Assembly: GCA_007118895.1 (NCBI GenBank)
Contig: SKQS01000048.1
Location: 1-52,608 of the forward strand
Direction: 5' to 3'
DNA: 52,608 bases
Source of the DNA: Wenzhouxiangella sp.
GTDB lineage: Bacteria; Pseudomonadota; Gammaproteobacteria; Xanthomonadales; Wenzhouxiangellaceae
The notes under the pieces are model-generated. The model was not told the origin of the DNA. It saw nothing but the letters and a program-made list of their open reading frames with translations, and made no database searches. The position numbers and the translations under genes are program-made. Position 1 is the first letter of the stretch, and the number at the start of each line of letters is the position of its first letter. Below are positions 13,601 through 17,698 of the stretch, piece after piece.

Positions 13601-14116
13601 GCAACCGATAAGCAGACGCGCCGGAACGAAGACATAACCGCGCGCAAGGTCCGGGTCGTCGGATCAGAGGGAGACCAGATCGGCGTCATGGACATTCGCG
13701 CCGCCCTGGAACGAGCAGAACAGGAAGGGATGGACCTGGTGGAAATCGCACCCCAGGCCGATCCGCCGGTATGCCGGATCATGGACTGGGGCAAGTACCG
13801 TTTCGAGCAGTCGAAGAAAGCCCAGGTCGCCCGCAAGAAGCAGAAGCAGATCCAGGTCAAGGAAGTCAAGTTTCGCCCCGGCACCGACGATCACGACTAC
13901 CAGGTCAAGTTGCGCAATCTCCGCCGCTTCATCGAAGAGGGCAACAAGGTCAAGGTCACCCTGCGTTTCCGCGGGCGCGAAATGGCTCACCAGGAACTGG
14001 GCCTGGACCTGCTCAACCGGGTCGAGGCCGATACCGCGGAAGACACCACCGTAGAGCAGCGCCCGCGCATGGAAGGTCGCCAGATGGTGATGATGCTGTC
14101 GCCGAAAAAGACCTGA
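13598..14116 (+). CDS. infC: Translation initiation factor IF-3
   Basis: IF3 keeps 30S subunits free and checks the start codon-initiator tRNA pairing. Read from ATC at 13598 the protein is 172 residues, close to the 180 of E. coli. The N-terminal domain includes the conserved [20 protein letters not shown] and [24 protein letters not shown], followed by a lysine-rich linker (RKKQKQ) and a C-terminal domain with [28 protein letters not shown] and [13 protein letters not shown]. Starting at the ATG at 13688 would lose 30 conserved residues. The last 285 bp are repeated at 17397-17681. The usual neighbour rpmI is displaced by about 3.7 kb. Confidence 0.95.
13832..14116 (+). repeat. Left copy of the infC 3'-end direct repeat
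   Basis: These 285 bases, from the linker codons to the infC stop, match 17397-17681 at 279 positions. The repeat ends exactly at the stop codon: sequence after 14116 and after 17681 is unrelated. This copy is in frame with the infC 5' part and is the functional one. At two of the three changed residues it keeps the Met found in E. coli IF3 (GREMAH, GRQM); at the third it has Asn where E. coli has Ser. Confidence 0.95.
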
Positions 14117-14370
14117 TTGGCCCTCAGGGCCGCGGCATCCGATTCACCAACGTTTTGATTTTCTGCGCCCCTGGCGCCTGCCGACCGGGCATGCAGGTCG
14201 CCGTCCCGGACGATCCGGAAGCTGAGATTCGGGTCAGATCGCACGCCCGCCAATGGCGCATTCGATGCTTGAATTGTCGCCTGAGTGCAAGCCTCCCCGG
14301 GCAGAGCTTGTTGAGATGAGCCGGAAGCGCTTCGATTGGAACCAAGCGATTTCCAGACAAGGGCGGAATC

Positions 14371-16455
14371 ATGTCTCGCATCATCGAATTCAATGCACGC
14401 ATTCGCTGTGCTCGCTGTCTGCTCAATCGGCTGCTGCTGCTTGTGTTGCTCGGCATGCCGGGCCTCAGCCTGGCCGGTCTGTGCCATGTCAATCACGCCG
14501 CCAGTGGCGCCAATGACGGCAGCAGCTGGGCAGATGCCTACGTCGACTTGCAGGATGCCCTGGGCAATCTCGACTGCGACAAAATCTGGGTCGCCGCAGG
14601 CACCTACCTGCCGACCGACGGCGGAGACACGTCGATTTCCTTCGTGGTCCGCGACAGTCTGGCCCTCTACGGCGGTTTCAATGGCTCGGAATCCGAACGC
14701 GATGACAGGGACTGGATCAACAATGAGACGATTCTCAGTGGCGATATTGACAATCAAAGGGGGGAGCGCACTAATTGTGTAGTTGAAGCCAGCGACACCG
14801 GTGACGGAACCGTAATTGACGGCTTGATTGTCGAACGTGGCGGGGAGGGCTGTTCCGGCCAGCGCGGTGCCGGCATCCATGCAGCCAATTCCAGTCTTGT
14901 GCTCAGAAATTCGATTGTGCGGAATAGCGGCCGCGTTCAGCTCGGACCCAACTCTGTCGCAATGGTCGAAACTGGTGGCGGGATATATGTGTCCAATGGA
15001 TCCCCCATGATTGACTCGGTGCTGTTCAAGAATAATGAAGCCCTTGTGTTAGGCGGTGGCATGCATTTATCGGATGCATCAGCAACTATTTCTGACAGTG
15101 CTTTTGTCGCCAATGGCGCTGGTGAGTTTGGGGGAGGTGGTCTGTCACTTGACGGTTCGGCAATCGTAGTTCTGATTAACGTCACATTGAGTAGTAACTC
15201 GGCAGGACCTAATGAAGGCGGAGGTGGAATTCTCCATTGGGGTGACGGGTTGCTTGAGCTGACCAATGTTACGTTCAGTGGAAACTGGGCTGGAAGCATT
15301 GGGGACTCTATTTCAGTCTACGGCTCAGGCTCCATCCAGCTCAACAACGTGTTGATGGACGATGGGGAGAGTTCGGCGTGTTTTCTCGGGGCTGGGGCAA
15401 GCCTGCATGCCGACTCTACACACAACCTGATCGAAGACCCCGATCATACCTGCGGCCTGGTCGATGGCCAGGACGGTAACCTGATTGGCGTCGATCCCAT
15501 GCTCGGTCCCCTGGCCGACAATGGTGGCTTTACCCCTACCCATGCACTGTTGCCGGACTCCCCGGCCATCGGCGCCGGCAGCAACGCGCATTGTCCGGAA
15601 ACCGATCAGCGCGGTATTCCGCGCCCGCAAGGTGTCAACTGCGATATCGGAGCGTACGAGAGCGTGCTGATATTCGAGGACGGTTTCGAAGTTATCTTGC
15701 AACCGGGCGACACCTTCACCGATTGCGATGAGTGCCCCACTATGGTTTTGATTCCCGCCGGCACCTTCACCCAGGGCAGCCCGGCCAGCGAGCCGCAGAG
15801 TTACGGTAACGAGCGCCCACAGCGCTCTGTCAACGTTCCCGCCTTTGCCATGGGCCAGACGGCGGTGACGTTTGCCGAGTGGGACGCCTGCGTGGCCGAC
15901 GGCGGCTGCACGCACAATCCCGGCGATCAAGGCTGGGGTCGCGGCAACCGCCCGGTGATCAACGTGAGTTGGAACGACGCCCAGCAATACGTCACCTGGC
16001 TGAGCAACAAGACCGGCCACACCTACCGCCTGCCCTCGGAGTCCGAATGGGAATACGCCACCCGCGCCGGCACCACGGGCCGTTTCAACACTGGCGATTG
16101 CATCACCACCGATCAGGCGAATTTCTGGGGCACAAGTCCTGCCACAGGCTGCCCAACGGGCATTGTTCGTAATCAGACTCTGCCGGTAGCCAGCTTCGCA
16201 CCCAACGCCTTTGGCTTGTACGACACCCATGGCAACACTTGGGAATGGGTGCAGGACTGCTGGAACGAGAACTATGTGGGTGCCCCCACTGATGGCAGCG
16301 CCTGGATGTCGGGTGACTGCAGCCGTGCCGTGCTTCGCGGCGGCTCCTGGTACTTCGTCGGCTCTAGGCTGCGCTCTGCCCTCCGCGTCAGGACCACCCG
16401 CGGCTATCGCTACAGCGGCCTCGGCTTCCGTGTCGCCAGGTCCGTAAATCTTTGA
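14371..16455 (+). CDS. Secreted beta-helix protein with C-terminal FGE/C-type-lectin-fold domain and DGR-like variable end
   Basis: The 694-residue product starts with a signal peptide (cleavage near SLAG-L, residue 36). Residues 40-430 form a right-handed parallel beta-helix of the polymorphic-outer-membrane type, with repeated short strands (GGGIYVSNGSPMI, GGGMHLSDASATI, GGGGLSLDGSAI) and a closing AIGAGSN...DQRGIPRP...DIGAYES module. After IFEDGFE a second domain (about 450-690) has the formylglycine-generating-enzyme fold: IPAGTFTQGSP, RLPSESEWEYATRAG, NAFGLYDTHGNTWEWVQD, RGGSW and GFRVAR. The paired cysteines that true FGE enzymes carry after RGGSW are absent, so a binding role is likelier than catalysis. 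The middle of the gene is visibly more AT-rich than its neighbours. It sits between infC and rpmI, a foreign location. Function unknown; surface adhesion or ligand recognition is inference. Confidence 0.8.
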   Translation: MSRIIEFNARIRCARCLLNRLLLLVLLGMPGLSLAGLCHVNHAASGANDGSSWADAYVDLQDALGNLDCDKIWVAAGTYLPTDGGDTSISFVVRDSLALYGGFNGSESERDDRDWINNETILSGDIDNQRGERTNCVVEASDTGDGTVIDGLIVERGGEGCSGQRGAGIHAANSSLVLRNSIVRNSGRVQLGPNSVAMVETGGGIYVSNGSPMIDSVLFKNNEALVLGGGMHLSDASATISDSAFVANGAGEFGGGGLSLDGSAIVVLINVTLSSNSAGPNEGGGGILHWGDGLLELTNVTFSGNWAGSIGDSISVYGSGSIQLNNVLMDDGESSACFLGAGASLHADSTHNLIEDPDHTCGLVDGQDGNLIGVDPMLGPLADNGGFTPTHALLPDSPAIGAGSNAHCPETDQRGIPRPQGVNCDIGAYESVLIFEDGFEVILQPGDTFTDCDECPTMVLIPAGTFTQGSPASEPQSYGNERPQRSVNVPAFAMGQTAVTFAEWDACVADGGCTHNPGDQGWGRGNRPVINVSWNDAQQYVTWLSNKTGHTYRLPSESEWEYATRAGTTGRFNTGDCITTDQANFWGTSPATGCPTGIVRNQTLPVASFAPNAFGLYDTHGNTWEWVQDCWNENYVGAPTDGSAWMSGDCSRAVLRGGSWYFVGSRLRSALRVRTTRGYRYSGLGFRVARSVNL
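16336..16440 (+). other. Putative DGR variable region (VR) in the C-terminal lectin-fold domain
   Basis: Within codons 656-690, invariant family residues (RGGSW, LRSA, single Arg codons, GFRVA) alternate with positions of unusual residues. Almost all of the latter end in C or T and can be derived from AAC, AAT, GAC or ATC by changing only adenines: TAC TTC GTC at 661-663, CTC at 671, GTC at 673, ACC ACC at 675-676, GGC TAT at 678-679, TAC AGC GGC CTC at 681-684. This is the footprint of adenine-directed mutagenic retrohoming at the 3' end of a C-type-lectin-fold gene. No template repeat is seen in the window, so the call rests on pattern only. Confidence 0.55.
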
Positions 16456-16477
16456 CCTCTGTGCTTTTACCCTTTGC

Positions 16478-16532
16478 GTCCGGTGTCAGCCGGACTGGGG
16501 GTATTGGGGCGAAGCCCCCATCGACTTTTTTG
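16478..16532 (+). terminator. Hairpins after the beta-helix gene: terminator and possible DGR cruciform
   Basis: A perfect 6-bp hairpin GTCCGG-TGTCAG-CCGGAC (16478-16495) is followed by GGGGC-GAA-GCCCC (16506-16518), whose arms can also pair with the GGGGG at 16497-16501. A T tract (16526-16531) follows at a distance. Factor-independent termination is likely. Stem-loops just downstream of the variable region are also a known requirement of DGR retrohoming targets. Confidence 0.55.
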
Positions 16533-16543
16533 CCGTGGACGAG

Positions 16544-16568
16544 AAATTCCAGGACAGGCACCATCTGG
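16544..16568 (+). repeat. 25-bp dispersed repeat, left copy
   Basis: The element reads AAATTCCAGGACAGGC, then A, then CCATCTGG, and recurs with one change at 17299-17323. GGCACC here can pair with GGTGCC at 16586-16591. Such elements resemble REP-type palindromes, but no REP-associated transposase is present. The two copies bracket the DUF433/DUF5615 genes. Confidence 0.7.
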
Positions 16569-16635: not shown

Positions 16636-17022
16636 CTATTCTTCCCTGGAACGACTGCTACCAACCGGCAGACGGCGTATCCGAACCTGGGTTGCCGTCA
16701 CAGTAATAGCCGCACCACTTTGCAGTGCCGCGGCTATTTTTGGCATTATGGCCTGCAGTAATCTCGCGAAGGCAATTGCATCAAGGCCCTCTTGGCGGAC
16801 ACGAATAACCGAAGGGCTATTGTTTGCTCCCAGAGCCAGTAGTGTGTGGAAATCGGCGTCAAGCGTGACGACAACAAATCCATGGGTTCGGGCGTATTCA
16901 AGAATCTCTGTGTCTGCAGCCCGGCTCATTCCCATTTCCGAGATATGCGTGACTTCGAGACCATGCTTGGTCAGTAAGCTTGCCGCCGTAGCCGGCACAC
17001 CCTGATCAAGTAAAAACCTCAA
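16636..17022 (-). CDS. DUF5615 PIN-like protein, probable toxin
   Basis: The 128-residue protein has the DUF5615 (PIN-like) pattern: the N-terminal acidic motif MRFLLDQGVP, then EMGMSRAADTEILEYARTHGFVVVTLDADFHTLL, with Asp residues expected at a metal site. Members of this family are usually paired with a DUF433 protein and are regarded as VapC-like toxin candidates. The start overlaps the stop of the upstream DUF433 gene by four bases, so the pair is translated together. It lies on the strand opposite to infC and rpmI. Toxicity is inference from the family and arrangement. Confidence 0.8.
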   Translation of the reverse strand: MRFLLDQGVPATAASLLTKHGLEVTHISEMGMSRAADTEILEYARTHGFVVVTLDADFHTLLALGANNSPSVIRVRQEGLDAIAFARLLQAIMPKIAAALQSGAAITVTATQVRIRRLPVGSSRSREE

Positions 17023-17249
17023 GCAACATCCCGCTGTATGACTTCGTCATCAAGGTTGCAGGCTGCCCAGGCTAATGCCTGTCGAATGTCCTCGGGTTCG
17101 AGTTCCGGATAGTTTTTGATCAGTTCGGCCTGGTCCGGATAGACAGACAGTGCCTCCAGCACCCTTCGCACCGTAAGGCGCATGCCACGGATGCAGGGTT
17201 GCCCGTTCATCTTGACGGGGTCGATGGTGATTCGATCAAATTTGTTCAT
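17019..17249 (-). CDS. DUF433 protein, probable antitoxin
   Basis: This 76-residue protein carries the DUF433 pattern: RITIDPVKMNGQPCIRGMRLTVRRVLEAL, then YPELEPEDIRQALAWAA, with a winged-helix-like layout. The ATG at 17249 is chosen because it gives the normal family length; a longer open frame reaching 17555 reads antisense through the infC fragment. It precedes the DUF5615 gene with a four-base overlap, the order expected of an antitoxin followed by its toxin. Confidence 0.8.
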   Translation of the reverse strand: MNKFDRITIDPVKMNGQPCIRGMRLTVRRVLEALSVYPDQAELIKNYPELEPEDIRQALAWAACNLDDEVIQRDVA

Positions 17250-17298: not shown

Positions 17299-17323
17299 AA
17301 ATTCCAGGACAGGCGCCATCTGG
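17299..17323 (+). repeat. 25-bp dispersed repeat, right copy
   Basis: This copy matches 16544-16568 at 24 of 25 positions (G for A after AGGC). It lies 50 bases upstream of the DUF433 start and runs straight into a 12-bp tandem array. Confidence 0.7.
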
Positions 17324-17390: not shown

Positions 17391-17681
17391 GCCGCGCGCA
17401 AGAAGCAGAAGCAGATCCAGGTCAAGGAGGTCAAGTTTCGCCCCGGCACCGACGATCACGACTACCAGGTCAAGTTGCGCAGTCTCCGCCGCTTCATCGA
17501 AGAGGGCAACAAGGTCAAGGTCACCCTGCGTTTCCGCGGGCGGGAATTGGCTCACCAGGAACTGGGCCTGGACCTGCTCAACCGGGTCGAGGCCGATACC
17601 GCGGAAGACACCACCGTAGAGCAGCGCCCGCGCATGGAAGGTCGCCAGGTGGTGATGATGCTGTCGCCTAAAAAGACCTGA
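17391..17681 (+). pseudogene. Right copy of the infC 3' end (IF3 C-terminal-domain fragment)
   Basis: From 17397 to the TGA at 17681 the sequence matches infC codons from the lysine-rich linker to the stop, with six differences in 285 bases: three silent, three changing Asn to Ser, Met to Leu and Met to Val. The N-terminal domain is missing. An ATG at 17367 could start a 104-residue product ([13 protein letters not shown]...) that would be almost exactly an isolated IF3 C domain, but only a weak GGGA precedes it. The two lost methionines are conserved in E. coli IF3, which suggests relaxed selection. It was probably the original infC end in front of rpmI. Confidence 0.85.
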
Positions 17682-17698
17682 TTCGACTCAGTATAAAC

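Follow-up and report, generated by a model that had tools for sequence, protein, structure and literature searches.

Results

The target gene and its surroundings

The window analysed here, the whole stretch of 52,608 nucleotides from Wenzhouxiangella sp., is a contig of a 3.38 Mb assembly that comprises 288 contigs and is 95% complete. It carries an intact gene, hereafter the target gene, whose 3′ end contains a variable region (VR) of the kind found in diversity-generating retroelements (DGRs), followed by a short conserved element and two hairpins. The features are as follows:

14371..16455, + strand: target gene, 694 aa, an intact open reading frame with Pfam domains
14836..15222, + strand: right-handed beta-helix PF13229, residues 156-284 (Pfam E=1.7e-7)
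15733..16440, + strand: FGE-sulfatase/C-type-lectin-fold domain PF03781, residues 455-690 (Pfam E=2.9e-56; PDB relatives include TvpA, 2y3c)
16336..16443, + strand: VR, with the randomised codons within 16351-16422, supported by entropy at adenine (A) sites and by comparison with the template of locus L136
16423..16443, + strand: GC-rich conserved 3′ end of the VR, GGCTTCCGTGTCGCCAGGTCC, at the position of the IMH and putatively acting as such; unchanged across the family and also in the DGR VRs of other genomes
16457..16477, + strand: 21-nt post-VR element CTCTGTGCTTTTACCCTTTGC, with one mismatch to CTTTGYGCTTTTRCCCTTTGC
16478..16495, + strand: hairpin GTCCGGT-GTCA-GCCGGAC from DNA folding, located where DGRs have their post-VR hairpin/cruciform, with a loop departing from the published GRNA
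16506..16518, + strand: second hairpin GGGGC-GAA-GCCCC from folding, with a stem similar to that behind the VR of L136

The earlier note, made from the sequence alone, had placed an FGE/C-type-lectin fold at the C-terminus of the target protein, and the Pfam match bore this out; the codons from 16336 onward encode RGGSWYFVGSRLRSALRVRTTRGYRYSGLGFRVARSVNL, in agreement with the coordinates of the note, with the stop codon at 16453-16455. The variable stretch is thus carried by a C-terminal C-type-lectin/FGE-type domain, as in DGR variable proteins. The closest solved structures to this domain were PvdO and formylglycine-generating enzymes, with TvpA of Treponema denticola lower in the list (E=7e-16). 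Catalytic formylglycine-generating enzymes require an active-site cysteine pair in their C-terminal part; by reading, neither such a pair nor any single cysteine is present among the final 36 residues of the target protein. The N-terminus is hydrophobic and was read by eye as a putative signal peptide, and the beta-helix protein is probably secreted.

A 291-bp stretch from the 3′ end of infC (IF-3) is present twice, in copies 98% identical at 13828-14118 and 17393-17683, which flank a 3.3 kb insert holding the target gene. This arrangement suggests that an insertion into the thrS-infC-rplT region duplicated part of infC. Downstream of the target gene, at 16544-16568, there is a 25-bp sequence, AAATTCCAGGACAGGCACCATCTGG, that recurs as a direct repeat (24/25 positions identical) ahead of the second infC fragment, at 17299-17323, and is a possible trace of an insertion. 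The insert also carries a toxin-antitoxin-like gene pair, DUF5615 (PIN-like) and DUF433, at 16639-17240 on the − strand.

Variation at template-adenine sites

The genome of the window holds a paralogue of the FGE domain on contig C168 (73% at the amino acid level), and several dozen homologues with 55-81% identity were found in approximately 15 genomes of the same bacterial family, often several per genome and some in tandem. Twenty-three homologues from this family were aligned in codon register for entropy analysis of the VR. The frame RGGSW, RSA, R, and GFRVARS was invariant in all 23, with hypervariable codons in between, in agreement with the alternation of invariant family positions and unusual residues that had been described from the window alone. 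In the variable codons, bases 1 and 2 were near random and the third base was column-specific, being mostly C, with T at codon 24 (15/23) and G at codon 19 (17/23). The information in the third-base columns was 0.348, compared to 0.155 (sd 0.023) in simulations from amino acid and codon usage, 0/2000 of which reached the observed value. The earlier note had also remarked that nearly all of these codons end in C or T; 14 of the 17 in the window do so, which is not significant by itself against a background of approximately 65% (p=0.10), and the 23 homologues showed no enrichment of such endings once amino acid and codon usage were taken into account (z=1.5).

A degenerate template pattern with Asn codons (AAY) at the variable positions, scanned over approximately 85,000 species genomes, matched 14 loci, namely 13 cyanobacterial loci and one, L136, in the Pseudomonadota MAG C21_maxbin.011 (JAUYFG010000018.1). 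The reverse transcriptase (RT) of L136 has the motifs PIGNLTSQ and YVDD (Pfam RVT_1, 4e-20), and the locus includes a VR fragment, a template encoding RGGSWNNNGNRMRSANRNNNTRDNRNNNLGFRLSS, and an ORF at the usual position of Avd, a candidate for that gene. The encoded pattern, RGGSWNNN..RSANRNNN.RDNRNNNLGFR, has the frame of the window with Asn codons at the variable positions of the window, and the VR of L136 is followed by CTTTGCGCTTTTACCCTTTGCC and the hairpin GGGGGC-GGTA-GCCCCC. The RT and template of L136 adjoin its fragmentary VR, whereas the window contains neither RT nor template.

The L136 template, which comes from another organism and not from the VR family itself, was scored at 28 A sites and 44 non-A sites. 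Across the 23 family VRs, template-A sites held 1.81 bits versus 0.94 at the other sites (p=1e-9), with 0.53 and 0.70 bits at non-A first and second codon positions, respectively, and the bases at template-A sites were A 211, G 160, T 149, and C 124. The template of another DGR-bearing genome, G470, yielded the same result (1.76 bits at A sites versus 0.93 elsewhere), so that variation at template-adenine sites was found at the family level against two independent templates. Codons 11, 21, and 29 varied at bases that are not A in the L136 template, the A sites being borrowed from another organism's template. When the window VR itself was set against the L136 template, 20/28 A sites but just 7/44 non-A sites were different (p=3e-6), the differences thus being concentrated where the template has adenine. 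Pooled over comparisons with three family copies, 60/84 A sites and 23/132 other sites of the window VR were changed (p=1e-15). The reverse pattern, 0.53 at A sites and 0.89 elsewhere, was exhibited by the non-DGR control, a sequence-conserved FGE gene of the same organisms (15 sequences). Homogenisation by a template, by which third positions would be more conserved in the VR than upstream, held for some pairs involving the window and not overall (0.44 in the VR versus 0.41 upstream). Overwriting from one shared template is therefore not visible in these data.

The post-VR element and hairpins

Elsewhere in 369 genomes of the class, the 21-nt element occurred at five places (G470 x3, G194, and G322), every one directly behind an FGE VR, and a reversed control pattern had no occurrence in the same genomes. 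In L136, too, this 21-nt element comes immediately after the VR. Two of these three genomes, G470 and G322, have a DGR-type RT; in G194, a search with the L136 RT gave no match at 1e-20. The complete genome G470 carries two FGE targets (L144, L193), one of them 52% identical to the domain in the window, with the element directly behind each VR; it differs from the genome of the window in that RT and template are present and in that the protein partners are unlike the beta-helix. The FGE VR of G322 (L203, G322:C323) has the exact element and an in-frame stop right after RGGS, perhaps from adenine mutagenesis (TGA/TAG from W or an A-rich codon) or from decay. Within the family, approximately six of about 30 copies have kept the element, and many VRs now lie inside longer proteins.

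GC-rich hairpins behind the VR, with 7-10 bp stems and 4-nt GRNA loops, matter for homing (PMC3240598). Both the 21-nt element and a hairpin/cruciform (16478-16495) were found behind the window VR; by reading, the loops GACA in G023:C68 and GGTA in G012 fit GRNA, whereas GTCA in the window does not. As a single strand the flank of the window folds with only modest stability (z=-1.4). The hairpin argument is accordingly one of conservation and position, and folding energy does not carry it. The adenine-site pattern, the behaviour of the non-DGR control, and an element and hairpins common to complete DGR loci together support the earlier proposal that the VR is a DGR target.

Search for the reverse transcriptase and the template

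The RVT_1 profile had no match in the window's own assembly even at E=1, and the RT of L136 had none in it at 1e-20. No template was found in this genome by DNA similarity, and a pattern accepting the VR base or A at each position, with three mismatches allowed, matched only the VR itself. Other similarity matches in the genome were considered as templates and rejected, being the C168 paralogue and a stretch of contig C21 inside a non-variable FGE gene. A relaxed template pattern with one mismatch, run on 151 genomes, gave a single match, in G110, which lies within an FGE homologue; no template was thus found in the window's own genome or in 150 relatives. RT and template repeat had previously been reported as absent from the window, and the whole-genome search proposed at that time found neither in the assembly. 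A complete DGR has a DGR-type RT and a template matching the VR at all non-A sites, and the genome of the window exhibited neither of them.

Among 42 relatives of the same family, 12 have some RT. Where the motif could be read, it was mostly of the PQG kind; this classification covered neither the short fragment of an RT in G025 nor the degraded RT in G029. An RT in G018 located 14 kb from an FGE homologue was rejected as a DGR RT, its motif being VPQGLSVS, which is not DGR-type. The sole recognisable DGR-type RT among the 42 belongs to G017, a genome without the FGE gene family. It lies on a phage-like contig (L112, G017:C83) and has the motif PIGNLTSQ. Two single-contig genomes, G012 (no RT at all) and G022 (two RTs, one of which could be read and is of the PQG kind), carry family VRs without a matching RT, so that the absence of the machinery across the family is not simply an assembly gap, though an RT contig may be missing from the window's own genome given its 95% completeness. 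A phage or plasmid origin of the target was rejected, as the only matches were below 60% identity and none was in IMG/VR. In G012, several Ser/Thr kinase-like proteins, each with a terminal FGE domain and a VR of its own, are encoded in a row within approximately 25 kb (L102, L103) and resemble kinase/lectin sensor proteins of conflict systems.

Conservation of the scrambled residues in relatives

Pairs of family genes form two groups that do not differ much in overall divergence. The first comprises seven orthologue-like pairs, with an upstream identity, where measured, of 0.78-1.0; in these, 11/196 A sites and 52/168 third positions were changed, with a p-value of 1e-10 that is only a guide because one pair is intra-genome and one gene is used twice. 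The VR in these pairs was conserved about as much as the rest of the gene; in the pair G027:C39/G028:C264, for instance, 17/24 third positions and 2/28 A sites were changed. The second group, with A sites changed wholesale, includes all comparable relatives of the window copy (upstream identity 0.77-0.84), the window VR differing from G022, G023:C68, and G026:C27 at 18/28, 23/28, and 19/28 A sites and at 6/44, 11/44, and 6/44 non-A sites, respectively. Because A sites are conserved between the orthologue-like pairs, the randomised residues were constrained after randomisation. This freezing was seen in relatives of the window gene, that is, in orthologous VRs of other species, the window copy standing outside the tested pairs. 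Accordingly, the comparison between sister strains proposed in the earlier note was answered in part: it was made on relatives only, where the variable codons are conserved between sister-species orthologues. Two target copies from different species (L080, G026:C129; L081, G023:C326) are 100% identical across upstream, VR, and downstream DNA, reflecting either recent transfer or cross-binned contigs.

Discussion

Considering these results, we propose that the target gene is probably a genuine DGR-type target that has been orphaned by loss of the retroelement, and that the copies open to testing are frozen and under constraint. The scenario is as follows. In the past, an RT that made errors at adenines would have copied a template repeat rich in AAC/AAT codons into cDNA, which would have been written over approximately 16336-16443 and so have given the C-type-lectin domain a randomised surface for binding; the scrambling would thus be the work of mutagenic retrohoming. 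Since RT and template are now absent, the scrambled patch of this beta-helix protein, itself probably secreted, would be a fixed, ordinary site of putative ligand binding. The RT appears to have been lost, and not merely left unassembled; the window copy is presumably frozen like its relatives, and its patch may bind a ligand. An orphaned DGR target accounts at once for the pattern at A sites, for the landing element, for the lack of RT and template, and for the constraint that came later.

The earlier note had left two options, a target served in trans or an orphan. In the former, the window VR would still be rewritten by an RT and template missing from the 288-contig, 95%-complete assembly because they lie on an unbinned contig, plasmid, or phage. 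The window VR and post-VR element do look complete, every comparable relative of the window copy differs at A sites, and remote targets are reported to be served in trans in Thiohalocapsa (PMC10907252). However, neither RT nor template was found in the assembly and no relative has a template; within the family, a DGR-type RT could be recognised on a phage-like contig alone, and the genome concerned is devoid of the FGE gene family; orthologous family VRs are frozen; and phage and plasmid matches do not exceed 60% identity, with none in IMG/VR. We therefore regard continued service in trans as improbable, and the orphan option is favoured by the lack of any RVT_1 match, template, or matching same-family RT and by VR conservation between sister species. 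An imported fossil, with scrambling in some other host that bore a DGR and later horizontal transfer of the gene into a lineage that never had the retroelement, is about equally unlikely. Such an import would agree with the position of the gene in an insertion between two infC 3′ end copies, with the 52%-identical targets followed by the same post-VR element in DGR-bearing genomes of other families, and with the identical copy common to G026 and G023; yet 26 family VR genes form a group in the tree, albeit a weakly supported one (88/36), that is separate from the genes served by DGRs, and this fits diversification inside the family better than repeated import.

Strong diversifying selection on exposed lectin loops derived from a common Asn-rich ancestor would require no DGR. 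Exposed FGE-like loops can vary without DGRs, their third bases could be inherited, and third-position divergence of the VR equals that of the upstream gene. Nevertheless, the first and second bases at template-A sites are saturated, with all four bases used almost equally, next to non-A bases that are fixed; another FGE family in the same genomes does not vary at those sites; and orthologues are constrained there, not diversifying. Variable loops could result from positive selection alone, but the post-VR element common to real DGR loci could not, and we consider this explanation very improbable.

In cyanobacteria, the C-type-lectin target all3226 retains remnant TR-VR homology although no RT lies nearby, and the authors of that study suggested that the machinery may be removed once a good variant has been selected (PMC7517822). 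The remote and remnant variable proteins that they described, such as all3226, share with the window a C-type-lectin target without a nearby RT, but those cyanobacterial genomes generally still hold a DGR, whereas in the family of the window RT and template are missing family-wide and the later constraint has been measured. Thiohalocapsa PB-PSB1 has incomplete and remote DGR targets, several of which are diversified in trans by an RT of the same genome (PMC10907252); its location of targets away from an RT and its FGE-type C-type-lectin targets are features in common with the window, whereas no RT was found in the window's genome. TvpA is likewise a DGR variable protein with an FGE-type C-type-lectin fold, though the DGR of which it is part has been described (PMC7159879), while no RT was found in the window's genome. 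In the literature searched, which covered few subscription papers, we found no family-wide case of orphan or decayed DGR targets.

DGRs have been studied as live diversifiers, and the later fate of their products has been mostly conjecture. Because the randomised sites can be named from the sequence and the later constraint on them can be measured, the idea that variants are diversified, then fixed and inherited becomes testable; surveys anchored on the RT miss orphan targets. More tentatively, and with somewhat less than even confidence, we suggest that this bacterial family may keep and multiply scrambled lectin domains after loss of the retroelement, some VRs being inside longer multidomain proteins, so that receptors that were once random may have become a constrained, inherited repertoire.
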